A stretch of DNA of 64,000 bases. Origin: Sinohyriopsis cumingii. Taxonomy: Eukaryota; Mollusca; Bivalvia; Unionida; Unionidae. Below the pieces are notes generated by a model. It was not told the origin of the DNA and ran no database searches. It worked only from the letters and a program-made list of their open reading frames with translations. The DNA lies in contig CM068841.1 of the NCBI GenBank assembly GCA_028554795.2, positions 23,431,308-23,495,307 of the forward strand, given 5' to 3'. A program made the position numbers and the translations under genes. Below are positions 3,267 through 20,291 of this stretch, piece after piece; the first letter of the stretch is position 1; each line of letters starts with the position of its first letter.

Positions 3267-3282
3267 GGCCCTGAAAAGGGCC
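3267..3282 (-). terminator. histone-type 3' stem-loop of the left terminal gene
   Basis: Minus-strand GGCCCT-TTTC-AGGGCC: a perfect 6-bp stem with a 4-base TTTC loop. It begins 24 bases after the stop of the minus-strand gene at 3307-3540. The 5' flank is A-rich (AAACCCAAA), and the 3' flank AGCCA replaces ACCCA. A purine-rich stretch (CGAAAAGAGAT) follows about 12 bases on, at the place of a histone downstream element. It lies within the TIR and is identical to the right-end copy. Confidence 0.8.
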
Positions 3283-3306
3283 TTTGGGTTTATGTTAATG
3301 TATTCA

Positions 3307-3540
3307 TTAACATAAATGGTACCGCATTGGTCTTCTTCTTGTCCTTAGGCTACGTCTCACTGTTGGTCCGTAAATCAGCACTCTTTTCAGGCATCCTTGT
3401 CTTTCAACGTAGATCCTACATATCCACAGGCTGGTGTTTGTCCTGTGGACAACGGTCCACTTGGATCGGACATACATGAGCATGTCCGTCCTAAACATCA
3501 TGGAAGACACAAGCGTAGAAGATTGCACATCGGTCCACAT
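3307..3540 (-). CDS. left-terminal small basic protein, unknown function
   Basis: ATG-started 77-codon frame with an Arg-rich C-terminus (RRSLRTRRRPMRYHLC). I recognise no domain. It is supported as a gene by a TATAAATA box about 45 bases upstream of the ATG, a histone-type stem-loop 24 bases past the stop, and a diverged homologue at 24253-24501 that shares the LMYV-S-W block, the SLRTRRR C-terminus, the TATA box and the stop-to-hairpin spacing. It is divergently arranged with the plus-strand gene at 3760. The protein is small and basic but is not a histone by sequence. Confidence is in the gene, not in a function. Confidence 0.6.
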   Translation of the reverse strand: MWTDVQSSTLVSSMMFRTDMLMYVRSKWTVVHRTNTSLWICRIYVERQGCLKRVLIYGPTVRRSLRTRRRPMRYHLC

Positions 3541-3584
3541 CTTGAAGCGACGAGAACAAGTGAATCAATGCAGTGAACTGCGCT

Positions 3585-3592
3585 TATTTATA
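3585..3592 (-). promoter_or_regulatory. TATA box of the left minus-strand terminal gene
   Basis: Minus strand reads CTATAAATAAGCG, with the ATG at 3540 about 45 bases downstream. The same TATAAATA precedes the homologous pseudogene at 24253. Confidence 0.65.
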
Positions 3593-3690
3593 GGTACAGG
3601 AAGGATTGAAACGGATTGAATTCATTCACCAATCCGAACACGCGTTACAAAATTCAGTCAGCTCGCATCCAATCCGAAGAGAGCAGTCTG

Positions 3691-3713
3691 TGACGTCACG
3701 TGGTCTATATAGA
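3691..3713 (+). promoter_or_regulatory. CRE/E-box plus TATA promoter of plus-strand terminal gene
   Basis: TGACGTCA (3691-3698) overlaps CACGTG (3697-3702), and both sit just upstream of CTATATAGA (3705-3713). The ATG is at 3760. The site lies in the 220-bp gap between two divergent genes and could serve both. The degenerate copy at 24100-24160 keeps the flanking block GTTACAAAATTCAGTCAGC and a TATA-like core. Confidence 0.6.
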
Positions 3714-3759
3714 TTCGTTAGCGCTTGTGTGCAGTCAATCTATGCGACAGTGATTCAAC

Positions 3760-4321
3760 ATGACGGAAACTCAGAAAACGATCCATTGGGGTGCACCAGC
3801 AGGGGAGACTGCCCAAGGGAACCCGGACTTACTTTCAGAAGAGGTACATTGGGATTTTGTGGATTTTCTTACCTCGCAAGAATTTGTTCCGGAACCTTCG
3901 TTACCTTCTTCATTACCGCAAGTGGAGAATTTTAGACAGAGACAGAAAGAAGAATTGGAGAAATTTATACAACGACAAAAGGAAGCGGAACAAGCTTTTC
4001 TCCTACAGCAACAGCAACAGCAACAAGAAGAGGTAAGAAAAAAAACAACAGCAACAACAGCAAGAAGAAGTAGCAGCAAAGAAACAAGAGGGTGAAAATC
4101 AAACGGCCACGGTACTGTTGAACATTTTAGCGGAGTTAAGAAGTCTGAAACAAATGTATCAGACTTCTTTATCACGACCGAAGAGAATACGACCTTCCCG
4201 AGCTAAACACGCCAACCCTGTGACTAAGCCTGTCGTACCACCCTTAGTGATTTCAACCCAATCATCAGAAGTAGGCCTTGGCCGTGGCAAAGGCTTAAGG
4301 CAGTTAAAGTTGATTGGTTAA
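3760..4321 (+). CDS. left-terminal Gln/Glu-rich coiled-coil protein, with a +1 frameshift at an A8 run
   Basis: ATG at 3760 opens a frame that ends at 4095. A run of eight A residues (4038-4045) shifts the sensible continuation by one base; the second frame carries on through Gln/Glu/Ala-rich sequence, an LLNILAELRSLKQMYQTSL helix and a basic tail to TAA at 4321. The whole would be about 187 residues: an acidic N-terminus, a charged FRQRQKEELEKF coiled coil, poly-Q, then the helix. The helix is conserved in the pseudogene at 23530-24130, which confirms that the second frame belongs to the gene. The shift may be a mutation, a homopolymer error or slippage. A GAG-GTAAGA donor-like site lies at the junction, but no in-frame acceptor of reasonable intron length was found. 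A histone-type hairpin starts 25 bases after the stop. Confidence 0.6.
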
Positions 4322-4345
4322 ACTCACCCCTACACCAAAATAAAA

Positions 4346-4361
4346 GGCCCTTTTCAGGGCC
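4346..4361 (+). terminator. histone-type 3' stem-loop with ACCCA flank
   Basis: GGCCCT-TTTC-AGGGCC, perfect 6-bp stem, 25 bases past the stop at 4321. It is immediately followed by ACCCA (4362-4366) and, about 9 bases on, a purine-rich CGAAAAGAAAT. This fits the metazoan histone mRNA consensus (6-bp stem, UUUC-type loop, ACCCA, purine-rich downstream element). An AATAAA (4339-4344) overlaps the 5' flank, so ordinary polyadenylation is also possible. Confidence 0.85.
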
Positions 4362-4611: not shown

Positions 4612-5103
4612 TTAGTCTCTCTGTTTTTTTAATTTCTTCACCGTTTTTTCCTCATTTTCTTCCCTTCTTCTTTTCTTCTCCTGTTTCTTTGCTTCTTTTA
4701 AATAGAATTGTCTTCTTTCTTCCTCTTCTTCCTCTGAGGAATCTCTCTCTTCTTTCGAAGAATCCCTCTCTTCTTCCGAAGAATCCCTCTCTTCTTCTGA
4801 AGAATCCTTCTTTTCTTCTGACTCCTCTTGTTTCTTTTTTGGGCAATCTGGAGACCAATGTCCTTTTTCTTTACAATAATAACAGGTATCTTGACTTTTG
4901 TCTTTTTTAGCCCCTGTTTTTTTTCTTTTTTGACGGTCTGGACACTCTGAAGACCAATGCCCTTTCTTCTGACAGATATAGCAAGTATCTTGACTTTTAT
5001 CTCGAAAGGAAGGAGAGTAGTCCGTCGGCTGGTCTGAAGAGAATTTTCTAATGACCCCTCGCAAAGCTCTGACGAAACGTTCCATCTGGGTAGTCTCTTC
5101 CAT
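4612..5103 (-). CDS. two-zinc-knuckle (CCHC) acidic protein
   Basis: I take the ATG at 5103 rather than an upstream GTG because it lies about 55 bases downstream of a clear TATATAAAAA box (5158-5167, minus). The product is 163 residues. Two retroviral Gag-type CCHC knuckles, CYICQKKGHWSSEC (41-54) and CYYCKEKGHWSPDC (74-87), are separated by a basic linker. Next comes an acidic DSSEEER heptad-like repeat (about 95-130) and a Lys-rich coiled-coil tail. CCHC knuckles bind single-stranded nucleic acid, so a role in genome handling or RNA binding is plausible but unproven. It is divergent from the DNA polymerase gene, with a 134-bp shared intergenic region. No histone-type hairpin follows it. Confidence 0.8.
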   Translation of the reverse strand: MEETTQMERFVRALRGVIRKFSSDQPTDYSPSFRDKSQDTCYICQKKGHWSSECPDRQKRKKTGAKKDKSQDTCYYCKEKGHWSPDCPKKKQEESEEKKDSSEEERDSSEEERDSSKEERDSSEEEEEERRQFYLKEAKKQEKKRRREENEEKTVKKLKKQRD

Positions 5104-5157
5104 TGTTGTGCTCGGCTTGAGAGTGAAATGAATAGTGAATGGACAAGACACACACCC

Positions 5158-5237: not shown

Positions 5238-8200
5238 ATGAAACGATCCCATTCATTCGAGAAGAAAGAAGAAGAAGAAAGTAAGAGGCAGAAACGTGAT
5301 CTATCGCCTCGTACCAGGGCTGAAATCTTGGCACAAATTCATGCCAGTGATTTTGAAGAGGACATGAGTGAACCAGAATCCGAACCCTCTAAACCAAGTT
5401 CACCACCCTTAGTCAACCCTGAAAAGTACTATTCCATTCGAGAGACGGAAAAGCGCTCCTCTAGAAAATTTAGAACCACAGCTTACACCTACACTGTGAA
5501 GTTTAAAGATTTCAAGGCCGACGTACCCTTGGAGAAAGCAGAAGGGTTTATCACCGAGATGTGGGATTCTTTGCTCACCGCACTCAAGCGACAATGTCAA
5601 GCCAAAGAAGACGATCGCTTGACACTATCCATAGATCACGACGGTTTGAAATCCCCTGTTTGGATCGAGTTTAGCAGACCCGCAGAACTGACCCCTTCCA
5701 AAGTCATGGACAAGATACAACAGGTGCAACAATCTAATGACCAGTTTGACATCACCGATGGTAAAGCCACACTGAAAATGGCCCACGTCTCTCCTCCTCA
5801 AGGAACTGGATGCAAAAAAGATGTTATTGGTGGACGACCTTCGCAACACCAAAAAGAGTCTCGTCCGAATTAACAACCCTCAAGACCAGATGTGTTTAGC
5901 CCGTGCCATCGTGGTGGGACGAACCTATGCCAACAAGAACGACACGGTAGAATGGAAAAGAACCTGGAAAACTATTCAACGATGCGATCGAGCCAAACAA
6001 CGAAATGAAGCAGAACTCCTGTTGCAACAAGCCGGACTGTCCAAAGACACACCCTGTGGCATTCCTGAGATGCAAAAATTGCAAGATGCCCTAGCTCCAC
6101 GCTACACCTTGAAAGTGCACCCTCAAGAAATGCGTGGAACTCTGTTGTTTCGAGGCCAAGATTTTAAGGACGGAAAATACATTCATGTCTATCATCACGA
6201 TGACCATTTCGATACCATTACCAGTATCACTGGATTCCTGGGATACAGTTATTATTGTGAGAAATGTGACTATGGTTATAACAATCGAGAGCAACACAAG
6301 CATTGTGGAATGAAATGCCCAGGATGTTTGGCCTCTCCACCCTGTCTGAGCGAAGGACCAGTGCCTTGTTCGACTTGTTTGCGCACGTTTGTTAGTCCTA
6401 CCTGTTACCAACAACATTTGAAAACACAAGGTTCACAGAAGAAATGTGCTTGTCAACTCCTGAGATTGTGCCCTACCTGTGGACAAGGCATACTTACCAA
6501 TAATGCCAAGGCACACGTATGTCGAGGAAAGAAAAAATGTCACATTTGTCACCACATCGTGGACTTGGAACACCAATGCTACGTGCAAAAATACCAACCC
6601 CCACCAGAGAAAGAGGACGGTCACAAGAAGAAAGGCAATTTCATCTTTTTCGATTTCGAATGCATGCAAGAGACTGGCATTCACATTCCTAATTTCTGCG
6701 TGGCTCATCGAGCGTGCGAGAAGTGCATTCAAGAACCTATCTTCAGTCATTGCCCTCGCTGCAGCAAGATTCCTGGAGGACGTGAAAAAATCTTTCGGGG
6801 ACCAAACACGTTAGCCGATTTTGCCCAATGGGTCTTAGACCCCATCGACAAGACGTGGAGCCAAGAGGACATCGAACGTTACGGAGATTGTCATCGTCAT
6901 GCCACGGTGATGGCTCACAATTTCTCCGGATACGATGGACAGTTTCTTTTGAGGTACTATGCGTAACAAGGCACCGAACGTCCTAAAGTGACTTTGAACG
7001 GAGCCAAAATCATTTTCATGCAAGTGGGACAAGTACAGTTTAAAGATTCGATGAGTTACTTGGCCATGCCTTTGAGCCGAATGCCTAAAACGTTTGGAAT
7101 GACAGAAATGGCTAAAGGGTACTTTCCACACTTTTTCAATACGGAAGCCAATCAACATGCCGTTCTACCCCATTTGCCTGAGGCTCACTATTACGACCCC
7201 GACAACATGCGTACCGAACAACGAGAAGCTTTCTACGCTTGGTACCAGGCTCATGCCTCTGACCCCTTCGACTTTCAGGAAGAAATGTTAAAGTATTGTC
7301 GTTCCGACGTGGACATTTTACGGCGTTGCTGTGGAAAAATTCGAGAAGTGTTCATGGAACACGGAGGGGTCGATCCTTTGAAAGAAGCTTGCACCATTGC
7401 CAAAGCGTGTTCCTTAGTGTCGACAACGATTCATGCCTGAAAACACCGTGGCTGTCATCAGTCCTCAAACGACCCACTATGTCAAGCGTCAATACTCGGT
7501 CAAAGCCCTACGTTGGTTACATTACTTGTGCGACAAGGAAGACAAATGGATTCAGCATGCCCGCAACGGAGGAGGCGAAAAGACCATCGGAACGTATTCG
7601 GTCGATGGCTGGGACTTAGAAAACCCCAAGATCGTGTACGAGTTTAACGGTTGCTTATTTCACGGATGTCCCGTCTGCTACCCTGACCGTGACACTAAAA
7701 ATCAGTTTTTGCAACGAACCATGGAAGACTTGTACCAGGACACTTGTCAGCGGCGCCTAAAGTTAGAACAGCAAGGATACCAAGTGGTGGAAATGTGGGA
7801 ACACGAGTACGATCACCGTTTGAAAACCGATCCCGAGTTTAAACGCCTCGTGGAAAGTTACCAGTTCATGGACCCGCTGAACCCGAGGGATAGTTTGTAT
7901 GGAGGAAGGACCAATGCCACCTGTTTGCTGTACCAAGCGGACGAAGAGAAAGGAGAAGAAATCAAATACTTGGACGTGTGTTCGCTGCATCCCTACGTGT
8001 GCAAATATTGTCGCTTTCCTGTAGGGCACCCGCAATTGTTGACGGAACACATCGACCTGAAAAACATTCGACAATACGAAGGCTTGATCAAGTGTAAAGT
8101 TTTGCCTCCCACGAACCTATACCATCCCGTCTTACCTCACCATTGTCAAGGCAAACTGATGTTTCCCTTGTGCCGTACTTGTGCCGAAACGTGCAACCAG

Positions 8201-9301
8201 GACCAACCTTGCCATCACAGCCAGGAAGAACGTGCCTTGACGGGAACCTGGGTCAGCGTGGAATTGTTCAAAGCTCTGGACATGGGATACCAACTGTTAG
8301 AAGTGTACGAAATTTGCCACTTTCCCAAGACACAACAGTATCACAAGGGTGACCCTACTCAGAAAGGCATTTTCGCCGACTACGTGGATGCCTTTTTGAA
8401 ACTGAAACAAGAAGCCAGCGGCTATCCTTCCTGGTGTCACACTCCCGAAGACCAAATACAATTCAAAGAGAAATACTATGCACAAGAAGGCATCTCTTTA
8501 GACCACATCGAAAAAAACGAAGGCAGGCGATCGTTTGCCAAAGTGATGTTAAATTGCTTGTGGGGTAAAATGGCACAACGACCGTGTTTACCCAAGACGG
8601 AATATTTGACAGAACCTTCCCGCTACTTCCAGATGATTCACGACAAAACCAAATACATGAAACACGTGGACGTCGTTCGAGAGGATTTGATCTTGGTCAA
8701 TTACGAAGAAGATCTGGACTTTGTACAAGACGACCCTTTTGGAAATGTCATCATTGCGGCTTACGTGACAGCTCATGCTCGCTTAAAATTGTACGAAGCT
8801 TTAGAACTGTTAGAAGAACGCGTCCTGTACTTTGACACGGACAGTTGCATTTACATCCACCACCCGATTCAACAGCACCCTGACATCGAAGGAGACCGTT
8901 TAGGAGCCTGGACAGACGAGCATCCCGACGACATGATTCTAAGTTTCGTCAGTGGTGGTCCTAAAAATTACGGCTACGAATACCGTGACAAACAAGGAGA
9001 AGTGCACACGACGTGCAAAGTGAAAGGACTGACTCTGAATCATCGTACCAGTCGAGTGGTCAACTTTGGGGTATTGAAAGAAGCCTTGCAATCGGGAGAG
9101 GATGGAAACTTTAAAGTGACCACCTATCAACCGAACAAGATTGTACGTTTACCCACTCACCACATCGTCAATCGACCCTTGGAAAAAGTCTATCAAATTG
9201 TATACCAGAAGCGAGTGGGACTTCCCAATCACTTCACCTTACCGTACGGTCACGTCGGTATTGGTCTGTATATAAAAAGGAACCCTAGGCAAGATCGATA
9301 G
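5238..9301 (+). pseudogene. POLB: protein-primed family B DNA polymerase, interrupted three times
   Basis: The Polinton replicative polymerase (pPolB), which copies the element by protein priming at the TIRs. From the ATG at 5238, a charged N-terminus leads into the family's N-terminal domain (SPPQGTG near 5795). There are Cys/His-rich knuckles (6255-6560), then the exonuclease motifs FDFE (about 6650), NFSGYDG (about 6920) and YCRSDVDIL (about 7290). The palm motifs are LDVCSLHPYV (A, about 7970), NCLWGK (B, about 8552) and YFDTDS (C, about 8830). The frame is broken by a one-base shift at the A6 run 5814-5819, an in-frame TAA at 6964-6966, and a second shift at about 7415-7424 just before the EFNGC-FHGCP region. 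About 1,350 codons in total, normal for Polintons. The coding sequence around the breaks is well conserved, so the lesions look young or partly artefactual. Confidence 0.93.
9269..9280 (+). promoter_or_regulatory. TATA box TATATAAAAAGG inside the polymerase 3' end
   Basis: Lies 48 bases upstream of the ATG at 9328 and within the last codons of the polymerase. The same design (TATA embedded in the upstream gene's end) recurs for the later genes. Confidence 0.7.
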
Positions 9302-9327
9302 TTCATTGTTCATTGAAGTAACTTACC

Positions 9328-9713
9328 ATGTCGTTGACGAAGAAGAAACCAGATTGGTTAGGAGTCAAATGTTGGACATCACCGAGACCAGGGTTTTGAG
9401 GCTTGGACACAAGAGGTGGCCCAGTATGCACGAGAGTTATTCAAGGAAAAAAGTTACTTTTCAACCTGTGTTAGTGACGGTGCCAGAAGAACCCGTCACC
9501 CAGGACAGGACTGTCGTGGACAGGCCTGAAAGACCCTTTCGGGAGGACACTTGTGTGACCTTACCCCCTACTATAGAACTGGTTAGAACTTTACCCAAAA
9601 CATGTTGTACAGACACTTGTGTTTATTCCACGTTCATGGTTATCATGTGCCTTTTATTCTTGTACTTAAGCCTTTGGCTTTTATGTATTTTTGTCTTTCG
9701 TATTCATGTTTGA
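9328..9713 (+). CDS. small C-terminally membrane-anchored protein, frame uncertain
   Basis: The first ATG after the TATA box (9328) opens a frame that stops at 9399, after 23 codons rich in Lys and Trp. A different frame, which has an ATG at 9369, runs to TGA at 9713 and ends in a strongly hydrophobic segment (about 25 residues, STFMVIMCLLFLYLSLWLLC) that looks like a single transmembrane anchor. It is preceded by a Pro/Arg/Asp-rich stalk. Either the gene is frameshifted between 9369 and 9400, or translation starts at 9369. AATAAA follows at 9727. I do not recognise the family; its position between polymerase and ATPase is the only context. Confidence 0.45.
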
Positions 9714-9726
9714 AAAAAAAACATTC

Positions 9727-9732
9727 AATAAA
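9727..9732 (+). terminator. polyadenylation signal AATAAA
   Basis: Fourteen bases after the stop of the small membrane protein and just before the TATA box of the ATPase. It contrasts with the histone-type ends of the terminal genes. Confidence 0.55.
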
Positions 9733-9747
9733 CGTGTTCTGAAAAAG

Positions 9748-9755
9748 TATATAAA
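9748..9755 (+). promoter_or_regulatory. TATA box of the ATPase gene
   Basis: TATATAAA, 48 bases upstream of the ATG at 9803. Confidence 0.65.
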
Positions 9756-9802
9756 CTCTTGTCTTGTTTGTTTTTCGTGTCACAAGTGACATTTCTCACA
9801 CC

Positions 9803-10546
9803 ATGGCTACCTCTGCTGTCTCTGCTCCCTCTTCCTCTACTGTCAAAGTCATCGACGAACGCTTAGATCGTGCCAGTTGGGAGGCTTTGTATCTTCGCCA
9901 TCCCTTTAACATGCTCATTGCTGGACCTAGCGGTTCAGGCAAAACCGAATTCGTCAAACGTTTGATCGAACATAAACATCATTTGATCGATCGACACCCT
10001 CAACGAATCGTGTGGTGTTACAAAGAGTGGCAATCGGCGTACAGCCTCTTGCGAGAAAGTCAAGGCGATTCCATCGTGTTTGTGGAAGGCATTCCTAAAG
10101 AAGACGATGGCATCGTCTCTGACTCCCGTCTAACCCATTTGGTCATTTTTGACGACATGTTAGGAGAAGACGAAGAAGAAATTAAACTGTGGTTCACGCG
10201 CAAAGGGCATCACCGTAATGCCAGTGTCGTTTACATCACCCAAAATTTGTTTCAACAAAGTAAAGCCCATCGCACCATCAGTCTCAATGCGCATTACGTG
10301 GTCTTGTTTAAAAGCCCTCGAGATAAATCGCAAGTGCAAGTCTTAGCCAAACAGTTAGGAACGCCTTGGCTGACTCAGGCGTACGACGATGCCACTCAAA
10401 CTCCACACGCCTATTTACTCGTCGATTTGAAACCTACGACCCCCGAGGATTTGCGATTTCGTACCCACTTGTTTCACCACTGGTGCCAAGACGGAGGGCC
10501 TGTCCTGTACACGTCTCCGTCCTCGACTTCATTTCACTCCCCATAA
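9803..10546 (+). CDS. ATP: A32/FtsK-HerA-type DNA packaging ATPase
   Basis: The ATG in CACCATGG context at 9803 gives 247 residues, the usual size for Polinton ATPases. Walker A is GPSGSGKT (residues 41-48) and Walker B is LVIFDDML (113-120). They are followed by a sensor-like VVYITQNLFQQS segment and the basic C-terminal region typical of the family. Homologues in poxviruses, adintoviruses and other double-jelly-roll viruses pump genomic DNA into preformed capsids. Intact. The preceding TATA box is 48 bases upstream; the next gene's TATA box follows directly after the stop (10554). It implies the element has, or recently had, a packaged virion stage together with the capsid genes at 14204-16879. 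Confidence 0.93.
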   Translation: MATSAVSAPSSSTVKVIDERLDRASWEALYLRHPFNMLIAGPSGSGKTEFVKRLIEHKHHLIDRHPQRIVWCYKEWQSAYSLLRESQGDSIVFVEGIPKEDDGIVSDSRLTHLVIFDDMLGEDEEEIKLWFTRKGHHRNASVVYITQNLFQQSKAHRTISLNAHYVVLFKSPRDKSQVQVLAKQLGTPWLTQAYDDATQTPHAYLLVDLKPTTPEDLRFRTHLFHHWCQDGGPVLYTSPSSTSFHSP

Positions 10547-10553
10547 AAAAATC

Positions 10554-10561
10554 TATAAAAA
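10554..10561 (+). promoter_or_regulatory. TATA box upstream of the basic Ser-Pro-rich gene
   Basis: CTATAAAAA, 41 bases upstream of the ATG at 10602. Confidence 0.65.
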
Positions 10562-10601
10562 CCTCAGACCCTTTTTCGTCTGTCTCACTCTCAGTGCGAA
10601 C

Positions 10602-11516
10602 ATGACATCCCTTCAGTCGCATCTTCCCGTCAAATTGATTCGTGCCTTGTATGGCATCAGTCGAGAAAAAGATCCACAAACACGAGCTCGTGTCTTAGAA
10701 GCTAGTCTCAAAGAAGTCTTACGATGGTTCACGGTGACGGCACGTCAATTACTCCAAGGAATCATTCAGATTCCTCATCAAACCAAACGCTTTTTCGATC
10801 GAAACAAAGTCGCTTTGGTCCAACTGGCCGATCCCTGCATCGACACTCAAGCCAAAATACAAATCATTTTGAAACCTGGAGGGAGCGGTACTCTAGGAGG
10901 GGTCATCATTCGCTCACTCTTAAGATGGGATCCTAATGCCCCCAAAGTTATACCCAAGACAAAATTCCAACGAAGCCCCAAGAAGAAAAAGACCAGGTCC
11001 CCAAGGAGAACTTCTCCAGTGGCAGGACCCTCCTCTGACCAGACACCACCCCGGAAAAAGAAAAGAAGCCCCCAGAAAAAGAAAAGTCCACAGAAAACTA
11101 GTCGCAAGAGAGGCACTTCGGCCAGGACGCAACCTTACACTCGCAAACCACGACCTGTCACAGCGGTGACTGCGTCTCCGTCAGCTTCACATTTGTCCAC
11201 TTCTCCGTTAATGACACCCAGAACTGAAGAGTACTTGGAGACGTTGATCACACCAAGAACTTCTCCGTTGATGACCCCCAAAAGAACTTCCCCAGTGGCA
11301 GGACCTTCCAATTTAGTGGCAGTGGCTGCTGCTCACAAAGTACCTTCTCCCAAAATCAAAGTTCAAGAAAGATCGGGCATGTTACAAAGTTTACTGGATT
11401 TGTCCAAGCAAGAACTGGCTCGATTTAGTCCGTTACGTACCCCTGCACGACGTGTCATGCCTGTCCTCAAACTGATACGACGTAAAGACAATCAGTGGCG
11501 ACGCGTTCCAGTATAA
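10602..11516 (+). CDS. basic Ser/Thr-Pro-rich protein, probable virion core or DNA-associated
   Basis: 304 residues from an ATG with a TATA box 41 bases upstream. Residues 1 to about 110 look folded and end in a Gly-rich hydrophobic block (KPGGSGTLGGVIIRSLL). From about 115 to 270 it is low-complexity, with repeated KKKKTRSPRR-type basic clusters and recurring RTSPVAGPS and SPLMTP motifs. The last 40 residues are again mixed hydrophobic and basic. The charge and the position between the packaging ATPase and the pX-like protein suggest a DNA-condensing virion component, which is inference. The SP/TP sites could be phosphorylated. I know no close relative. The frame is intact. Confidence 0.75.
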   Translation: MTSLQSHLPVKLIRALYGISREKDPQTRARVLEASLKEVLRWFTVTARQLLQGIIQIPHQTKRFFDRNKVALVQLADPCIDTQAKIQIILKPGGSGTLGGVIIRSLLRWDPNAPKVIPKTKFQRSPKKKKTRSPRRTSPVAGPSSDQTPPRKKKRSPQKKKSPQKTSRKRGTSARTQPYTRKPRPVTAVTASPSASHLSTSPLMTPRTEEYLETLITPRTSPLMTPKRTSPVAGPSNLVAVAAAHKVPSPKIKVQERSGMLQSLLDLSKQELARFSPLRTPARRVMPVLKLIRRKDNQWRRVPV

Positions 11517-11522
11517 AAAAGG
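11512..11522 (+). promoter_or_regulatory. TATA box overlapping stop of upstream gene
   Basis: TATAAAAAAGG includes the TAA stop of the 10602-11516 gene and lies 64 bases before the ATG at 11576. Confidence 0.6.
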
Positions 11523-11575
11523 CCTGTGACCAAGTCGGGTATCAGTGTTTTTTTGGTGCTCCTGAAGACTCAAAG

Positions 11576-11967: not shown

Positions 11968-12010
11968 CCTCGGAAGGTCCAAGATCTCAGAATCGACCCC
12001 TGACAACCCC

Positions 12011-12655
12011 ATGGAAGGACGAAAACTAGCTTTAGTGCCTTACAAACGATGGATGGAATACCATCGGTGGCAAGAACAACGCACCCCGCATTTACCTCCC
12101 AATCCCCATTTGAGCGAGATGTCCCAGTTACAACACGAATTGCAGTCCTTGATGGATCGCCAAGATTTGTTCGAAACAGAAAAATCGCAAAAGTACGGTC
12201 AACTCTTGCAACGACTGCAACTCTTTCACCAGAAAGCTTTAGACGAAACAGCTCTACCCACTCTGAAAGATTTTAAGAGCTTGATGAAAAGTCCAGCACC
12301 ATCACCAGTACCAGTACCAGTACCAGTACCACCAGTACCAGTGACCAAGACAGAAAAAGGAGAAGAAGAAGAAGGGTTTCAAACTCCACCAGAAAAAGTA
12401 CGCAAGTTAGCAACACCACCTACCTCCAGAATTGGATGGATTAAAAAGATGATGGCCACCCCTTCTTCATCACAAGAGAAAAAGAAAGTGAAGACAGAAG
12501 TGAAGACAGAAGTGAAACAAGAACCGATATCCCCCGCTCAGACATCCTCCTCCTCTTCAACACCTATTGCCGGTCGCACACGCAAAGCACTGCAATCCAA
12601 GAAAGTACCCCAAGAGAAAAAGAGTAACATCCTCCAAGAGTGGGTGTCTTATTAA
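12011..12655 (+). CDS. coiled-coil, Pro-Val-repeat basic protein of Polintons
   Basis: 214 residues. The N-terminus (LALVPYKRWMEY) resembles a widespread Polinton protein that begins with a -LVPY- block. Then come a Gln/Leu-rich coiled coil (about 35-85), a short PVPVPVP repeat (about 97-112, from tandem CCAGTA codons), an acidic patch, and Lys-rich tail repeats (KTEVKTEVKQEP). The order (pX-like, this, integrase) is common in the family as I remember it; function is unknown. The start ATG has a TATA-like box 44 bases upstream. The frame is intact and the stop lies 20 bases before the integrase start. Confidence 0.7.
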   Translation: MEGRKLALVPYKRWMEYHRWQEQRTPHLPPNPHLSEMSQLQHELQSLMDRQDLFETEKSQKYGQLLQRLQLFHQKALDETALPTLKDFKSLMKSPAPSPVPVPVPVPPVPVTKTEKGEEEEGFQTPPEKVRKLATPPTSRIGWIKKMMATPSSSQEKKKVKTEVKTEVKQEPISPAQTSSSSSTPIAGRTRKALQSKKVPQEKKSNILQEWVSY

Positions 12656-12675
12656 CACACCAACCAACACAAAAA

Positions 12676-13785
12676 ATGGAAAAAGTCTTAGCCAGCATTT
12701 ACTACGATCCCTCCCATCCTGCAGGTTACGCAGGAGTTCAAAAATTGTATCGTGCTGCCAAAACGCGACTGAAAAGTCTCCGTTTACCTCAAGTGCAACG
12801 ATGGTTACAAGAACAAGCTACCTACACTTTACACAAACCCATTCGACGCAAGTTTGCCAGAAGTCGCACCCGAGTGGAAGGCATCGATCATCAATGGCAA
12901 GCCGATTTAGCCGATGTCTCTCATTTGGCCAGCTACAATCGTGGCTACAAATATTTGTTTTGTGTCATCGACGTCTTTTCCAAATTTGCCTGGGTCGTGT
13001 CCTTGACTTCCAAATCGAGCAGCGAGTTAGTGTGAGCCCTGCAACGAGTGTTGAAACAAAGCGGTCGTCACCCTCTTCGATGGCAAACGGACAAAGGCAC
13101 CGAATTTCTGAACCAAGCTTTCCAAAAAGAATTAAAGAAACGTGACATTCATTTTTTTACCACCGAGAATCCCGAAACCAAAGCCAGCATCGTAGAACGT
13201 TTTCAACGCACTTTGAAAGAACGCATGTGGAAATATTTTGCGCATCACCACACTCTGAAGTACATCGACATCTTATCGCACCTGGTGCAAGCGTACAACC
13301 AATCTTACCATCGAAGCATCGGACGTGCCCCGCAAGACGTGACTCCCGACAACGAAGTGTTGGTGTTCGAGCACCTGTTTGGTACGTCCCCGACGAGGGC
13401 TGTCCCCAAGAAAAGTGGAGAATTGGCCGTAGGAGATTGGGTGCGCATTGGCAAAACCAAACGCACTTTCGACAAAGGTTACTTACCTAACTGGACGACC
13501 GAATTGTTTCGCGTCACTGGACGAGTGCATGGCCGTCATCCTACCGTCTATAAATTGGAAGACATGAACGGAGAAGTACTCAAAGGAACGTTTTATTTAC
13601 CCGAGTTACAACGTGTCACCAAAAAAGAAGACGACGTGTACGACATCGAAAGCATTCTCGAACGCAGAACCCGTAAAGTGGGCAAACGACGTGTCAAAGA
13701 AGTCAAAGTACGTTGGAAAGGATATCCGCCCAGTTTTGATTCTTGGATCGACGCTTCGCAAGTCATCGACTATAAAAAGAAGTGA
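12676..13785 (+). pseudogene. INT: retroviral-type integrase with chromodomain, interrupted by one in-frame TGA
   Basis: Inserts the element, generating the 6-bp duplication. From the ATG at 12676 the reading frame is continuous to 13785 apart from a single TGA at 13033-13035. The catalytic core shows WQADLADV (first Asp, about 12897), TDKGTEF (second Asp, about 13090) and VERF (Glu, about 13195). The second Asp and the Glu are separated by 34 residues, close to the usual 35. The C-terminus has a chromodomain-like YDIESIL---VKVRWKGYPPSFDSWI block (about 13640-13770), usual for Polinton integrases and thought to guide target choice. The TGA could derive from CGA by C-to-T change at a CpG. With readthrough the protein would be 369 residues, normal length. 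Confidence 0.93.
13771..13778 (+). promoter_or_regulatory. TATA box at the end of the integrase gene
   Basis: CTATAAAAAGAAG in the last integrase codons, about 20 bases before the next ATG. This is close for a TATA-initiated transcript with a 5' leader, so it may be fortuitous coding sequence. Confidence 0.35.
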
Positions 13786-13790
13786 CCATC

Positions 13791-14207
13791 ATGCCTTTTC
13801 ACACAGCAGACGCAGCTACGTCGACCACTCCTCCTTCCCCTAGTTCTTCTGTGCAAGATTTACAAAAACAACCCTTGTGGGTGTGGTGTGGAGAACGTGT
13901 GCCTAAAACGCAAATCGTCTTTTTCTGCCAAATCTTCGTGGTGTATTGTGTCATCGGGGCAGCCATCGCCAATTTGAGTTTGCAACAAGGAGACAAACAA
14001 TTGTGGACCATTTTATTGAGCAGTTGCATCGGTTACCTGCTTCCTAATCCCTCCCTGAAATTCACCTCGAACGGGAACCCCGGGAACCTTGTGTCCAGTG
14101 CCAGTGCCAGTCACCACTTCAATCACAACCAGAACCCCATTTTAGACGGAGGCACGCCTCTGACGTCCAGTAACCCCTCGGACAGCCACAGAACTCTGGA
14201 ATTATGA
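13791..14207 (+). CDS. small two-helix membrane protein conserved in Polintons
   Basis: 138 residues from the ATG at 13791. A Ser/Pro/Thr-rich N-terminus precedes a WVWCGERVPKTQIVFF segment. TM1 is at about 42-62 and TM2 at about 72-86, ending in the motif LLPNPSLKF. A Ser/Asn-rich tail follows. I recall similar short proteins with two hydrophobic helices and an LPNP motif next to the minor capsid gene in many invertebrate Polintons; function is unknown, perhaps a virion or host membrane component. Its stop overlaps the next start (ATGA), implying coupled translation or overlapping transcripts. Confidence 0.7.
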   Translation: MPFHTADAATSTTPPSPSSSVQDLQKQPLWVWCGERVPKTQIVFFCQIFVVYCVIGAAIANLSLQQGDKQLWTILLSSCIGYLLPNPSLKFTSNGNPGNLVSSASASHHFNHNQNPILDGGTPLTSSNPSDSHRTLEL

Positions 14208-15127
14208 GTCACCAAAACCAATTTTACTTAACTTTACCCAGTGACAGTTCCATGGAGGTGTTTCCCAAGAACACGTTGTGCTGTTACACGGCCAAATTAC
14301 CTCAGGCCATCCAGTTAGATCACGAAGCCCATTGGGAAGTGGCTTTAGTAGAAATGATTCACCCGACCCAAGTCCTCAATGTCCTTCCCAATCAAAATAA
14401 ATTTGATGTGGAAGTTCATGACGAGCAAATGCAACAGTGGATGGATAGCAATGTCAAATATGACAAGAAAACCCGTACACAAAAGTACACCACCTATCAC
14501 TTGTTCATTCCCCCAGGCAATTATTTTAGTGGTCAACATTTGGTCAGCACCATAACCTCCAGGTTTAATGTCGTGTTTCTGAAAGCTTTGGAGCATGTCA
14601 ACAAAAATGTCACCATGGAGTACCACAAAGCAGCTCGTCGCTTCTTGATGAAATTTGAACGAAGTAAAATCGTGTCCATTTTATTTTGTCCTGAATTGTT
14701 TGACATGTTGGGCGGAGACATGGACATGAGAAAGGCCATGCTCAAGAAAAACGAATTACCCATCGTTTACGACAACGAGTCTTTTAGCAAGTTATTTCGT
14801 GCCCCGGTAGAACTGAACCAAGGACTGAATTTGATGTTCGTGTATTCCGATGTGGTGGAGTACAACGTGGTGGGACACACCTCCGTACCGTTACTACGTG
14901 TCATTCCTTTCAAAGTAGATTCTGCCACGGACGCTGACGAGGAAGGTGGAAACACTTACCACGTCCACCGCGAATTTGTACATCCTCACTATTTGCCGGT
15001 CAGCAAGTCGTATTTGGACACGGTCAACATTGCTATAAAAGGAGATTTGGGACAAAATATTCCATTCACCAAAGGAAAAGTCACGGTGAAACTCCATTTT
15101 CGAAAACGGTTCTCTCACGACTCTTAA
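14204..15127 (+). CDS. mCP: minor capsid protein (penton-type, single jelly roll)
   Basis: 307 residues from the ATG in the ATGA overlap with the upstream gene. It begins FYLTLPSDSSMEVFPKNT, then WEVALVEMIHPTQVLNV: the family's opening strands. A long polar middle and a C-terminal hydrophobic strand region (VPLLRVIPFKVD; GKVTVKLHFRKRF) match the Polinton minor capsid family, predicted to form the vertex pentons. Intact. Directly followed, 3 bases on, by the pVI-like gene and then the major capsid gene, the canonical virion cassette. A decayed homologue occupies 63745-64000 in the same relative order. Confidence 0.85.
   Translation: MSHQNQFYLTLPSDSSMEVFPKNTLCCYTAKLPQAIQLDHEAHWEVALVEMIHPTQVLNVLPNQNKFDVEVHDEQMQQWMDSNVKYDKKTRTQKYTTYHLFIPPGNYFSGQHLVSTITSRFNVVFLKALEHVNKNVTMEYHKAARRFLMKFERSKIVSILFCPELFDMLGGDMDMRKAMLKKNELPIVYDNESFSKLFRAPVELNQGLNLMFVYSDVVEYNVVGHTSVPLLRVIPFKVDSATDADEEGGNTYHVHREFVHPHYLPVSKSYLDTVNIAIKGDLGQNIPFTKGKVTVKLHFRKRFSHDS
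15034..15040 (+). promoter_or_regulatory. TATAAAA within minor capsid 3' end
   Basis: Possible promoter for the pVI-like gene, whose ATG (15131) is about 95 bases downstream. It is coding sequence, so this is tentative. Confidence 0.35.
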
Positions 15128-15130
15128 GTC

Positions 15131-15547
15131 ATGTATCCAGTGTACCGAGGGGTTGCTCGACAGCGAGGACACGGCTTAGGAGACTTGTTAAAATCGGTCT
15201 TTCGTTCGGTGGCCCCGGTGTTGAAACCGATGGTGACACGCGGATTGCACGCCTTGAAAGATGCGGCACTGACGCAAGGCAAAGAATTTCTCCAAAATGT
15301 CATCATCTACAAACAAAACCCTAAAGAAGCCTTCATGAGGGCAGGCAAAAATGTCTTGCTGCAAACGGGCAAAGACATTTTAGGCCAACGAGAAACACCT
15401 ATAAATGCCCTGCACGCTACCGAGTCAGGCATTCAGCAAGGACAAGGCAGAACGAGACGACGAAGAAAACACCCTTTCACCAGACTTCAAGCGAGAAAGG
15501 CCAAGAAAAGAAGAACCGTTCGAGACTTAGACGTTTTCGATTATTGA
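15131..15547 (+). CDS. pVI-like membrane-active virion protein
   Basis: 138 residues. It opens MYPVYRGVARQRGHGLGDLLKS: a short N-terminus, then a Gly-rich amphipathic helix of the G-G-GLG-L type found in adenovirus pVI and adintovirus equivalents. A helical middle follows, then an Arg/Lys-rich C-terminus ending DLDVFDY. pVI-type proteins line the capsid interior and disrupt endosomal membranes after protease cleavage. The position between minor and major capsid genes supports the call. Intact here; the copy at 63343-63738 is frameshifted but keeps both ends. Confidence 0.75.
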   Translation: MYPVYRGVARQRGHGLGDLLKSVFRSVAPVLKPMVTRGLHALKDAALTQGKEFLQNVIIYKQNPKEAFMRAGKNVLLQTGKDILGQRETPINALHATESGIQQGQGRTRRRRKHPFTRLQARKAKKRRTVRDLDVFDY

Positions 15548-15565
15548 GAAAAGAGACAAAAAAAA

Positions 15566-16879
15566 ATGATGCACCGAGAATCTTGCGCTTGTTCCAAGAC
15601 GGAACTGGATCTGTTTGCCATGCCCCTTACCATGATGACCATGCAAGAATCCCAGTGGGTGGAATTTCACCCCGTCTCCTCACTGACCGATTCCGCTCCC
15701 ATCGAGTTTGAAATCAAAGGACAGCCCGAAGATTACATCGATCTGAATAGCAGTTACTTGTACCTGAAAGTCAAAATTCTAGATAAGACTGGAGGTGCTA
15801 TAGACGATGAAGCAGTAGCTCCCGTCAACAATTTCATGCATTCCTTGTTCAGTGGAGTGGACTTGTACTTGAATAACAAACTGGTCAGTAGCAGCATGGA
15901 TACTTACCCTTATCGTGCCTACCTGGAAAATCTCTTGACGTACGGAATAGATGCCAAGAACACTCATCTCAATGCCTGTGTGGTATGGGAAGCTGACGAA
16001 CCTACCAAGTTTGAAATATTGGAAACTGATGAAAAGAAAGACAACAATGATGGATTTGTAGAACGAAGAAAGAGAATCACGGGAGCAGACACAAGTTTAG
16101 AACTGATGGATCGTTTGCATTTGGACATGTGGTTGCAAGAAAAGTATTTGCTGAACGGGGTGGATGTCCGCCTGAGACTGAATCGTAGCAGTGCCGCTTT
16201 CCATTTGATGGCTGATAGTGACGGTTACAAAACCAAAATCCTAGAAGCCAGACTCTACGTACGCCGTGTGGAAGTGTTACCTAAAGTGGGAAACGACATC
16301 AGTCAGACGTTGAGCAGAACGACCGCCAAGTATCCCATACGACGCGTGGAAGTGAAAACCTTCACCATTCCCAAGGGACAGCGATCCATGATCGAAAATC
16401 ATCTGTTCCAAGGACAGTTACCCAAACGTTTGATCGTTGGTATCGTCGAGAATACAGCCTTCAACGGAGCTGCCGAAAAAAATCCTTTCTACTTTCAACA
16501 CTTTGGCGTGTCCAAAATCGAAGTCAGTCGCGATGGCAAGACCTTGTGTACCCGACCTTTCGAACCTGACTTTACCAAGAAGAATTACTTGAGATCGTAC
16601 TTGTCCCTGTACGAAGCCACCGGACAGTTAGCAACCAATACCAGTCACGGTATTACGTACGAGGATTATGCAGGAGGCTACGCTTTGTGGGCTTTCGATT
16701 TCACTCCAGACCAAGGCAGCGACGAGGGACATTTCCACCCTATAAAATCCGGCCAGATTCGTGTGGAAATTCAGTTTAAAGACCGAGACCCTGATGAAAC
16801 GGTGAACGTCATCCTGTATGCAGAATTCGATAATACCATAGAAATCAACAGTTTGAGAGAAGTCATCCTAGATTACTAG
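15566..16879 (+). CDS. MCP: major capsid protein (double jelly roll)
   Basis: 437 residues from the ATG at 15566 (a second ATG follows at 15569). Diagnostic blocks include PIEFEIKGQPEDYIDLNSSY at about residue 45, VNNFMHSLFSGVDLYLN at about 86, LLNGVDVRLRLNR-S at about 193, and the C-terminal RVEIQFKD---ETVNVILYAEF-NTIEI. These match the hexon-like capsid protein of Polintons and adintoviruses, which trimerises into icosahedral capsids. The frame is fully intact, in contrast to the broken polymerase and integrase. A near-complete but decayed homologue lies at 62106-63309. Confidence 0.93.
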   Translation: MMHRESCACSKTELDLFAMPLTMMTMQESQWVEFHPVSSLTDSAPIEFEIKGQPEDYIDLNSSYLYLKVKILDKTGGAIDDEAVAPVNNFMHSLFSGVDLYLNNKLVSSSMDTYPYRAYLENLLTYGIDAKNTHLNACVVWEADEPTKFEILETDEKKDNNDGFVERRKRITGADTSLELMDRLHLDMWLQEKYLLNGVDVRLRLNRSSAAFHLMADSDGYKTKILEARLYVRRVEVLPKVGNDISQTLSRTTAKYPIRRVEVKTFTIPKGQRSMIENHLFQGQLPKRLIVGIVENTAFNGAAEKNPFYFQHFGVSKIEVSRDGKTLCTRPFEPDFTKKNYLRSYLSLYEATGQLATNTSHGITYEDYAGGYALWAFDFTPDQGSDEGHFHPIKSGQIRVEIQFKDRDPDETVNVILYAEFDNTIEINSLREVILDY

Positions 16880-17181: not shown

Positions 17182-17220
17182 GGGGGATGTTTTCCTTCAC
17201 GTCCGCGCTTTGACTTTAAG
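17182..17220 (+). promoter_or_regulatory. shared upstream box 1 of the right-terminal genes
   Basis: GGGGGATGTTTTCC (17182-17195) continues as TTCACGTCCGCGCTTT (17196-17211), followed by a CTTTAAGAA TATA-like element. The ATG at 17274 is about 63 bases on. The box is repeated nearly exactly at 18038, 19152 and 19223, each before a terminal gene. It contains CACGTC and CGCG, rare in this AT-rich spacer. Confidence 0.75.
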
Positions 17221-17273: not shown

Positions 17274-17630
17274 ATGTGCTCCAAACTAGCTAAACTCAAC
17301 GAAGCCTACGTGAATTTGCATAGGGTCAGACACAGTCTGATACCGAAGCCAGAAGAAATAGAGAATGTGAGAATGTTAAAAATCACTGAAGACCTGATAG
17401 AAGAGCTCTTCAGAGAAGAAATGAACAGGGAAAAAGAAGAATGGACAGAGAAGTACAGACTTCAGAGACAGCAGCAACAACATCAACAAGAGCAGCAGCA
17501 GCAACCTGAAGCTGACAGAGGCTTTGTCGATTGTCGTATCGACACCAAAGAGTTCTTCTTCTCTTTCCGAAGAAGCAGACCTATCGCCAGAAAGTCTATC
17601 CTCAGAGGACATCGCATTCTTAGAAACTAA
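17274..17630 (+). CDS. right-terminal helical protein 1 (Gln-rich)
   Basis: 118 residues from the ATG at 17274. The N-terminal helix LAKLNEAYVNLHRVRHSL is followed by a second charged helix ending EELFREEMNREKEEW, a poly-Gln/His stretch and a basic Ser/Arg tail. I recognise no known family. The helix pattern (L--L-----L--R--L, then an EE-rich helix) recurs in the genes at 18129 and 19366, and a decayed orthologue lies at about 60560-60715 in the second Polinton. The shared upstream box and a histone-type hairpin 27 bases after the stop mark it as a transcription unit. Confidence 0.65.
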   Translation: MCSKLAKLNEAYVNLHRVRHSLIPKPEEIENVRMLKITEDLIEELFREEMNREKEEWTEKYRLQRQQQQHQQEQQQQPEADRGFVDCRIDTKEFFFSFRRSRPIARKSILRGHRILRN

Positions 17631-17657: not shown

Positions 17658-17673
17658 AGCCCTTTTCAGGGCT
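17658..17673 (+). terminator. histone-type 3' stem-loop with ACCCA flank
   Basis: AGCCCT-TTTC-AGGGCT, perfect 6-bp stem, 27 bases past the stop at 17630. The 5' flank is A-rich, ACCCA follows at 17674-17678, and a purine-rich AGAAAAGAAATAA lies about 9 bases further. Relative to the hairpin at 4346 the terminal base pair has changed from G-C to A-T on both sides, a compensatory change that keeps the stem. Confidence 0.87.
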
Positions 17674-18518: not shown

Positions 18519-18549
18519 CCAGGTGTCCATGAAGTTCCAAACAAAAAAC

Positions 18550-18565
18550 AGCCCTTTTCAGGGCT
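18550..18565 (+). terminator. histone-type 3' stem-loop with ACCCA flank
   Basis: AGCCCT-TTTC-AGGGCT, perfect 6-bp stem, 31 bases past the stop at 18518. ACCCA is at 18566-18570, with the purine-rich AGAAAAGAAATAA about 8 bases further on. Confidence 0.87.
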
Positions 18566-18682
18566 ACCCAATACTCTAGAAAAGAAATAACCATCAATTT
18601 GCCAATGTGTAGGTAGAGTAGTGTGAATATAAACACTAACTCTTTTTTAAGATAGTGTGAGGGTATGTGTTTGTGTGTTGGT

Positions 18683-19130
18683 GCTTGTAAGAGCTAAGGT
18701 ATGTTTGTGTGAATAGTAGATTATGGGTTTCTTTATTGTTTCTTAGCGTAGGTGAAGAGTATAGTTAGGGTTTTGTAAGCGCTCACGTACGATTGTGTGG
18801 ATAGTAGATTATGGATTTTGTTTATTGTTTCTTAGCGTATGTGGAGAGTATAGTTTGGGTTTTGTAAGCGCTCTCGTAAGATTGTGTGGATAGTAGATTA
18901 TGGATTTTGTTTATTGTTTTTTAGCGTAGGTGGAGAGTATAGTTAGGGTTTTGTAAGCGCTCACGTACGATTGTGTGGATAGTAGATTATGGATTTTGTT
19001 TATTGTTTCTTAGCGTAGGTGGAGAGTATAGTTAGGGTTTTGTAAGCACTCACGTACGATTGTGTGGATAGTAGATTATGGATTTTGTTTATTGTTTCTT
19101 AGCGTATGTGGAGAGTATAGTTTTGGTTCT
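18683..19130. repeat. 89-bp tandem repeat, about five copies
   Basis: The block beginning TTTTGTAAGCGCTCACGTAC recurs at 18771, 18860, 18949 and 19038 with an exact 89-bp period. A more diverged copy precedes it and a partial one follows. It sits in the non-coding spacer between terminal genes 2 and 3. Confidence 0.9.
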
Positions 19131-19151
19131 ATTATATGAAATGAGAAAGTA

Positions 19152-19260
19152 GGGGGATGTTTTCTTTCACGTCCGCGCGTTGTTTGGTCATGATCTAGGT
19201 AAGATCAATTTTATGTTTTTTAGGGGATGTTTTCCATCACGTCCGCGCTTTCACTATAAG
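19152..19260 (+). promoter_or_regulatory. shared upstream boxes 3 and 4 plus TATA
   Basis: Two copies of the box, at 19152-19180 and 19223-19251, are separated by a 40-bp block that also precedes box 2. The downstream copy is followed by CACTATAAGAACC (TATA at 19255). The doubled promoter suggests a lost gene or unequal crossover between terminal units. Confidence 0.72.
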
Positions 19261-19365
19261 AACCCACAAAGTTTGATGTTGGAACCATTCTAAGGAATAA
19301 CTGAGACAAAATTGACTCAAGTATCAGTTCTATTTAATTTATTGAGAGACATCTATTTCTGGATA

Positions 19366-19905
19366 ATGGATGTAGAATATGTTTTAGGAAGAATAGAAGA
19401 GGAATGGAGGCATGGAGATATGAAAGACTTTGTAACGAGTCAAGTTCAAGGCCTAAAGACAGCAAGAGATATCATAACAGGGATGATTGAAGAAGAAGTC
19501 AGTAAGTCAAGAGGCTTCATTAACCCACCTTACTTCAGAGTGGGAAGTTTGAAGGAAGCACTGGATCATGTCATCCAAGTCCGGTGCTTCCTAGAAAAAA
19601 TATTGTACTGGACAGAGTGGAGAAATGTAAAATGGGGATTGGAAAAGGTGAAGAAAGGGGAAGATCTGATGAGAAAAGTAATGGAGGAAGAAGTAGAGAA
19701 GATTAAAGTGAAATGGAGGGAAGAAAGAAAAGATGTGGAAAGCAAAAAGAAACAGACAGAGTTTGAGAGGATGAATGAGAATTGGATCAAAGTCCAGGAA
19801 AAGTTTAGAGCCTTGGGCCATCCAGACTGGATGCCAGAGGAGAAAAAGAAGAAGAAAGGAATAATGGAAAAAGTGAGGACTTGGTGGAAGAAGTTAAGGA
19901 GTTAG
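19366..19905 (+). CDS. right-terminal helical protein 3 (internally duplicated)
   Basis: The first in-frame ATG at 19366 gives 179 residues; the frame is open back to a TTG at 19312, which by position relative to the TATA box could be a mutated original start. Two repeats of the terminal-gene helix pair are visible, one starting before MDVEYVLGRIEEEW and ending MIEEEVSKSRG, the other LKEALDHVIQVRCFLEKIL to RKVMEEEVEKIKVKW. A Lys/Trp-rich tail follows. The function of the family is unknown. The promoter box is upstream, and a histone-type stem-loop lies 27 bases past the stop, within the right TIR. Confidence 0.65.
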   Translation: MDVEYVLGRIEEEWRHGDMKDFVTSQVQGLKTARDIITGMIEEEVSKSRGFINPPYFRVGSLKEALDHVIQVRCFLEKILYWTEWRNVKWGLEKVKKGEDLMRKVMEEEVEKIKVKWREERKDVESKKKQTEFERMNENWIKVQEKFRALGHPDWMPEEKKKKKGIMEKVRTWWKKLRS

Positions 19906-19923
19906 AAGAAGAAGAAGAAGAAG

Positions 19924-20291
19924 AAACCCAAAGGCCCTTTTCAGGGCCAGCCATATTTCTCGAAAAGAGATAGCCTTTCCATTGCCTACCCTTTTTTAAA
20001 ATTTAAATTTAAATTTAAATTTAAAAAAATTTAAAAAAAAAAAATCCCAAAAGCCCAAACTCTATTCCCCATGTTAATTTCCCCTTGTCGCTAGACAGAC
20101 CCACACTATAGTTCCATGTTAAATTCCCCTTGTCGCTAGAGTGACCCACGATTTTTCTGCATGTTAATTTCCCTTGTCGCTAATCTGACCCACGATTTTT
20201 CGCCATGTTAAATTTCCCTTGTCGCTAATCTGACCCAGGGTTCTCTGTAATGCTAATTCCCATTGTCGCTAATGTACCCCACCTTACTACT
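19924..20291. repeat. right terminal inverted repeat, about 368 bp
   Basis: Inverted copy of 2925-3291, differing at a few positions plus A/T-tract length. It contains the hairpin, the purine-rich stretch, the AAATTT tract and five 44-bp subrepeats, and ends CCTTACTACT. Confidence 0.93.
19933..19948 (+). terminator. histone-type 3' stem-loop in right TIR
   Basis: GGCCCT-TTTC-AGGGCC, perfect 6-bp stem, 27 bases past the stop at 19905. The flank is AGCCA rather than ACCCA, with a purine-rich CGAAAAGAGAT about 11 bases on. Confidence 0.82.

Follow-up and report, generated by a model that had tools for sequence, protein, structure and literature searches.

In a 64-kb window of the genome of the bivalve Sinohyriopsis cumingii (assembly GCA_028554795.2, contig CM068841.1, positions 23,431,308 to 23,495,307; "the window" means this whole stretch), there is a virus-like transposon of ~17 kb, which by its gene content and terminal inverted repeats is a Polinton. 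Five small genes lie inside the repeats, two at the left end (L and G2) and three at the right end (C0, C and R). Each of these end genes is followed by a hairpin and a purine box of the kind that marks the 3′ ends of replication-dependent histone genes, and the three right-end genes also carry a promoter box of the host histone genes. The two ends of the element are laid out as follows; scores are those of the Rfam family RF00032 (Histone3).

2925..3226: left terminal inverted repeat, 302 nt, 93% complementary to its partner; the inverted similarity runs on through the purine box and the hairpin of L to ~3287
3267..3282, minus strand: hairpin of L, then AGCCA; purine box GAAAAGAGAT at 3253-3244; 35.6 bits over 3242-3287
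3307..3540, minus strand: gene L (left end), 77 residues, basic, calculated isoelectric point 11.3, no Pfam family; stop 24 nt ahead of the hairpin
3541..3759: divergent promoter region common to L and G2, with TGACGTCA at 3691, TATATA at 3706 and CCAAT motifs, without the histone box
3760..4321, plus strand: gene G2 (left end), Q-rich, no Pfam family; frames 3760-4095 and 4037-4321, out of frame here
4346..4361, plus strand: hairpin of G2, then ACCCA; purine box GAAAAGAAAT at 4375-4384; 40.8 bits over 4341-4385
17274..17630, plus strand: gene C0 (right end), 118 residues, no Pfam family
17658..17673, plus strand: hairpin of C0, A-T outer pair, then ACCCA; purine box GAAAAGAAAT at 17688-17697; below the gathering score
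18129..18518, plus strand: gene C (right end), 129 residues, no Pfam family
18550..18565, plus strand: hairpin of C, A-T outer pair, then ACCCA; purine box GAAAAGAAAT at 18579-18588; below the gathering score
19366..19905, plus strand: gene R (right end), 179 residues, no Pfam family
19933..19948, plus strand: hairpin of R, then AGCCA; purine box GAAAAGAGAT at 19962-19971; 35.6 bits over 19928-19973
19990..20291: right terminal inverted repeat, partner of 2925..3226

The five hairpins are 16 nt long and conform to R-GCCCT-TTTC-AGGGC-Y, the 6-bp stem being perfect and the loop TTTC throughout, at the coordinates and on the strands given in an earlier note on this DNA. They lie 24-31 nt past the stop codons. 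Specifically, the distance is 24 nt for L (3306 to 3283), 27 nt for C0, 31 nt for C and 27 nt for R, as the note had it; its 25 nt for G2 becomes 24 nt (4322-4345). The note's statement that the hairpins follow the stops of terminal genes also stands, with the qualification that G2 is out of frame in this copy, so that the stop counted for it belongs to the 3′ frame (4037-4321). The outer pair is G-C in three hairpins and A-T in two, a change with compensation that the note had pointed out. Also as described there, ACCCA follows the stem directly in three cases (4346, 17658 and 18550; AGCCA in the other two) and a purine-rich stretch follows all five; this stretch is GAAAAGARAT in 5/5, and 13 or 14 nt separate it from the stem.

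The covariance model RF00032 recognises three of the five hairpins at or above its gathering score, and no other Rfam family reaches gathering anywhere in the 64 kb. The window contains 432 perfect hairpins with a 6-bp stem and a 4-nt loop, only seven of which have at least four G-C pairs, all five end-gene hairpins among them; the expectation of the motif in the window under a first-order Markov model is ~4e-5. The core block of the element, with PolB, ATPase, integrase and capsid genes, shows neither a histone-type hairpin nor a histone box in scans of the window, and the earlier note's claim that the capsid and replication block lacks the hairpin is thus confirmed by both Rfam and hairpin scans. 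A terminator or chance hairpin was considered and rejected: the bare motif RGCCCTTTTCAGGGCY occurs in 107 IMG/VR stretches, and none of the 107 has ACC after the stem together with a purine box. A wider hairpin pattern requiring ACMMA gave no exact match in IMG/VR, and the hairpin followed by ACCCA gave a single match in a prokaryote genome collection, on a mycobacterial contig, which we take as chance.

The hairpins at 3267 and 19933 sit in an inverted repeat that continues from the terminal repeats, and these two are therefore not mutually independent. Their position is what would be expected if the hairpin were a feature of the element ends at the DNA level, serving a replication origin, packaging or the structure of the terminal repeats, and not an RNA 3′-end signal. 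The other three hairpins (4346, 17658 and 18550), however, are internal, point in the sense direction and stand 24-31 nt past a stop codon, as they do in other copies; ACCCA and the purine box follow at fixed spacing, and the host histone genes share the layout. On this evidence, a purely DNA-level role is very improbable. Besides this, a second inverted repeat, TTATGTTAA..TTAACATAA, at ~3287-3312 on the minus strand, overlaps the stop of L just ahead of its hairpin and recurs in other copies.

Histone genes of the same genome have the same 3′ anatomy. Among 148 matches listed in a search for host H3, at least 104 are identical full-length copies, mostly in repeats of ~8.3 kb. One such repeat (L166) comprises H3, H4, H2B, H2A and H1, all five of which have an RF00032 match (35.0-39.4 bits). 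GAAAAG is found 13-14 nt past the stem in 5/5 Polinton genes and 5/5 host histone genes, so that the comparison with the species' own histone genes proposed in the earlier note yields the same hairpin, the same purine-box core and the same spacing. In the joint set of ten hairpins, pairing is complete (60 of 60 cells), and covariation is seen in two of the six pairs: the outer one, in C0 and C of the Polinton, and the third, in host H1. Together with the covariance-model matches, this direct comparison upholds the note's description of the hairpins as a histone-type structure.

Two further observations concern the resemblance to host genes. The best Polinton copy scores 45.6 bits with Histone3, compared with 35.0-39.4 bits for the one host repeat; since Polinton hairpins can outscore host histone genes, annotation based on Histone3 could label transposons as histone ends. 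In addition, a stretch like TCAATTTTGCCA, ~25-45 nt past the hairpins and beyond the purine box, is shared, perhaps by chance, by Polinton G2 and the 3′ region of host H2A (L166, 3619-3694).

The signals recur in Polinton copies across the genome. The search covered the window's own 2.9-Gb assembly, in which 75 Histone3 places were scored out of 589,472 first-look candidates, all 75 being above the cut-off. Thirty loci were taken from these places, together with 25 places as 6-kb stretches and three longer stretches round the first three, leaving out 20 of the 75. All 30 loci are Polinton gene ends, although the central site of one (L115) is so assigned by its surroundings only. In a non-circular test, the 58 stretches were searched with coding 3′ ends alone and the downstream sequence was then inspected. 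A hairpin with at most one mismatch lies downstream of 103 of the 110 coding ends (87 of them exact), a set that has three loci represented twice and L, R1 and R2 ends recruited, for the most part, through their own hairpin. By class, the counts are 16/18 for C, 6/7 for C0, 33/37 for G2, 28/28 for L, 7/7 for R1 and 13/13 for R2. R1 and R2 are two types of right-end gene whose N-terminal parts look unrelated by eye, and both retain the hairpin. The pattern that the earlier note had suggested seeking after stops in other Polintons is thus present in copies from the same genome.

Conservation was compared in copies not selected by their hairpin, using the pairwise difference within the hairpin, the five next bases and the purine box against that of the surroundings; the copies are related, and the permutation p-values are therefore a guide only. 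In class C (n=17), the signals differ by 0.038 compared with 0.162 elsewhere (p 0.0002), the lowest value of 185 slid masks, and in class L (n=10) by 0.051 compared with 0.201 (p 0.0001). The purine box has an identity of 0.975-1.0 in C, L, G2 and C0 and of 0.90 in R1 and R2, while the ACCCA-like region has an identity of 1.00 in class C, 0.949 in G2 and only 0.724 in L. In class C, variation is greatest in the 7 nt that separate hairpin and purine box (identity 0.728), as expected of two separately read signals; that both signals are kept while the DNA between them varies is a further point against a DNA-level feature. The corresponding identity is 0.81-0.87 in L, G2 and R2 and 0.95-0.96 in R1 and C0.

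These data also bear on whether the hairpins are functionless relics of a captured fragment of a histone gene, passively copied with the element. Capture is possible, because histone repeats with near-identical signals are numerous in the genome, and a passive relic would account for the changed hairpins in a number of copies and for the lack of clear extra conservation in G2. Yet the gene products reveal no histone coding sequence, the signals stand behind five different genes and are kept by both right-end types, and in C and L the surroundings vary more than the hairpin, the next bases and the purine box do. We consider passive inheritance highly unlikely.

Upstream of the right-end genes, a 29-nt box is repeated, mostly a few nucleotides upstream of a TATA-like motif:

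17183..17211, plus strand: promoter box of C0
18039..18067, plus strand: promoter box of C
19153..19181, plus strand: first of two promoter boxes of R
19223..19251, plus strand: second promoter box of R, which includes a 24-nt identity with the host H2B promoter (19226-19249)

In the host histone repeat, the box is matched at 24/29 positions in the H1 promoter, 23/29 in the H2B promoter and 21/29 in the H2A promoter (the last in inverse orientation), compared with at most 20/29 in 1000 dinucleotide-shuffled versions of that repeat; the Polinton core and 39.5 kb of flanking window sequence both reach 18. A short-word BLAST search of the histone repeat against the window gave as its best match the 24/24 identity between the H2B promoter and 19226-19249 (E 1.6e-6). 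The other matches with E <0.1 fall in the same box and in the hairpin regions, besides GA-rich low-complexity sequence; matches to the core and flank reach only E 0.37 or weaker, and a 15-nt piece common with the H4 promoter (E 0.37) is within chance. Across copies with 900 nt available, the box is present within 900 nt upstream of 30/30 right-end gene ends and 0/59 left-end gene ends, which rules out that the divergent L/G2 promoter carries it too. No exact match to the box occurs in IMG/VR. Genome-wide, GTTTTCNNTCACGTCCGCGC has 33,032 exact matches, compared with none for the reversed control. The first 100 listed of these form 40 clusters, which extrapolates, roughly, to some 13,000 right ends. 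At C1:5073951-5085057, seven promoter boxes follow one another on a single strand at intervals of ~1,851 bp, which would fit tandem amplification of a box-bearing unit.

The products of the end genes are not histones by any search made. No Pfam family was found for L, C0, C and R of the window, for the 5′ frame of the window G2 or for one open copy of G2 (the gene is open elsewhere in the genome, in copies L110 and L135), and an R2 copy gave a single weak match, to TAF4, at 16.6 bits against a cut-off of 33. G2 has 19 relatives, and R has four, found in the protein collection; those of R lie on contigs of ~1 kb and those of the two genes together on contigs of 0.9-2.3 kb. The idea that the hairpin genes encode DNA-packaging proteins that replace histones was dropped: the highest positive charge belongs to core genes without hairpins (10602-11516, 11576-11962 and 15131-15547).

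Histone-like promoters could also drive messages that are in practice polyadenylated, the hairpin being an element of stability or translation only. Histone genes of some animals make, in certain cells, poly(A) messages that retain the hairpin, which counts for this possibility, and in the window copy AATAAA or ATTAAA occurs 3′ of G2 (+17, +90 and +256) and of C0 (+108 and +200), so that poly(A) ends are possible there. Neither motif, however, is present within 400 nt 3′ of L, C or R, and the AATAAA just ahead of the G2 hairpin is absent from several other copies. Furthermore, the purine box, which would be relevant only to U7-type cutting, is well conserved. Polyadenylation as the normal fate of these messages is thus unlikely.

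Both signals are in place and agree with their counterparts in this genome; on the simplest view, therefore, expression and processing of the end genes would follow the histone pattern. Specifically, we propose, at a probability of about 0.82, that the end genes, built like replication-dependent histone genes with non-histone products, would give histone-type messages that are made through SLBP and U7, are non-polyadenylated and belong to S phase. Replication-dependent histone messages are cut by CPSF73 after ACCCA, with SLBP bound to the hairpin and the U7 small nuclear ribonucleoprotein (U7 snRNP) base-paired to the downstream element, and they persist through S phase. By analogy, host SLBP would hold the hairpin at the end of the Polinton message, U7 snRNP would pair with the GAAAAGA box 13-14 nt downstream, and the cut would fall after ACCCA, leaving a message without a poly(A) tail. 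Transcription of C0, C and R would be driven via the host histone promoter box, and that of L and G2 via their own divergent promoter. The end genes would then be active when cells divide, at the time of DNA replication, because the SLBP/U7 machinery and histone promoters work mainly in S phase, and they may constitute an early, S-phase class of the element. Compact 3′ ends may also stop transcription short of the terminal repeats, which would be useful for the outward-facing genes L and R. Some steps of histone 3′-end processing are described in PMC5011920.

It is from the anatomy of the ends, its presence over many copies and the likeness of both signals to the host's that we infer processing, timing and role. 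The earlier note had read the hairpins as sites of histone 3′-end processing; this is supported, with the RNA level read from DNA sequence, and the link to S phase that it drew is strengthened, because the right-end genes carry the host histone promoter box as well.

Several points weigh against the proposed histone-type expression. The two A-T-capped hairpins fall below the gathering score of RF00032, folding of the five 3′ regions yields modest z-scores (−0.67 to −3.15), and some copies have broken stems. The conservation test covered three of the six classes (C, L and G2), the copies free of hairpin selection numbering 0 for R1, 2 for R2 and 6 for C0, and its copies are related, as stated above. 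Within it, equal or lower values are obtained in class L with masks moved 1-6 nt upstream, and in class G2 (n=23) the signals are not clearly more conserved (p 0.052), the lowest masks starting 44-53 nt ahead of the hairpin. The spacer between hairpin and purine box is no more variable than the rest in R1 and C0. The left pair is without the histone box in all copies considered, the H4 promoter matches the box at 19/29, within the range of shuffles, and the poly(A) signals 3′ of G2 and C0 count here too. As to the host machinery, a search of the genome with the Rfam model of U7 found nothing, and the control genomes gave no match either; a pattern search gave 17 places, fewer than the 26 of its reversed control, and none of the 17 has a 3′ hairpin clearly like that of U7. 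Likewise, a search for the SLBP domain found none in the host and none in the control genomes, so that neither this result nor that with the U7 model speaks for absence from the host.

Between the two ends, the element carries the genes expected of a Polinton, along with a further gene next to G2:

4612..5103, minus strand: gene for a zinc-knuckle (CCHC) protein, convergent with G2; no hairpin; AATAAA/ATTAAA-type signal 32 nt past the stop
5238..16879, plus strand: core block without hairpins, with PolB, ATPase, integrase, capsid-type and further genes without assignment
7018-7440 and 7433-9301, plus strand: PolB, split over two frames
9803-10546, plus strand: A32-type (packaging) ATPase
12676-13035 and 13225-13785, plus strand: integrase core and chromo pieces
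15566-16879, plus strand: capsid-type protein

PolB, integrase and G2 are broken in the window copy. The rve match of 12676-13035 is below the Pfam cut-off (24.4 against 32.6 bits), and the chromo piece is above it. The capsid-type protein has 1020 relatives at E up to 0.001; among 120 matches listed, the animal-named relatives are 'F54H12.2-like' proteins of Mercenaria, Crassostrea, Ostrea and Saccostrea. A sequence search of PDB gave no relative of solved structure for it, no relatives of PolB or of the capsid-type protein were confirmed in IMG/VR, and a PHROGs search gave a single marginal match. General Pfam searches of the open reading frames turned up no protease, no dedicated search for an adenovirus-type protease having been made. 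The product of the zinc-knuckle gene contains acidic repeats.

Elsewhere in the window, 59990-63970 on the minus strand holds a decayed piece of a second Polinton, with open-reading-frame fragments like the capsid-type protein and a diverged promoter box (23/29) with TATAAA at 60053; no hairpin lies alongside. Between C and R (18639-19172), there are 89-nt tandem repeats, with five overlapping copies listed, and 303-745 is an array of repeats of 8 to 10 nt that is self-complementary too.

The element shares PolB, an A32-type ATPase, an rve integrase with a chromo domain, a capsid-type protein and terminal inverted repeats with Polinton/Maverick elements and adintoviruses, and differs from them in that its end genes have histone-type 3′ ends and promoters. 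With replication-dependent histone genes, the end genes share small size, a short 3′ region, the hairpin and the purine-box core at equal distance, and, in the right-end genes only, the promoter box of host H1, H2B and H2A. In contrast to histone genes, they are part of a virus-like transposon, and their window proteins match no Pfam family above the cut-off and are not histone-like. The 'Histoid' genes of adomaviruses, as described in PMC11071296, are likewise a histone connection in small animal DNA viruses; there, however, a histone-like protein is encoded, whereas in the window element the likeness to histones lies in the regulation and not in the proteins. A term search for 'stem-loop' found nothing in PMC11071296 and PMC11071308, two papers on viruses of the Polinton and adintovirus kind.

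A search of the open-access literature, with subscription journals mostly outside it, found among the papers listed no link of Polintons, Mavericks or other virus-like elements to histone 3′ ends. According to PMC6303110, histone messages alone among the protein-coding messages of animals have a terminal hairpin in place of poly(A). The parts of the system are known, and its use by the non-histone genes of a mobile element appears to be new.

A broader and much more tentative view, extrapolated from the copy counts, is that of a parasitic histone regulon, in which thousands of Polinton copies, with tens of thousands of histone boxes and hairpins, might switch on their end genes together with the histones in S phase, perhaps in histone locus bodies, and might compete for SLBP and U7 at each division. 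That would be an animal non-polyadenylated regulon beyond the histones; we regard it as possible, though doubtful.

If the end genes are indeed expressed as proposed, the histone 3′-end system would be open to non-histone genes, and S-phase coupling would be a directly testable strategy of a transposon. Their messages would have been overlooked in poly(A)-selected RNA data. Finally, the many natural copies beside the host genes would offer a comparative set for recognition by SLBP and U7 outside the few model animals.

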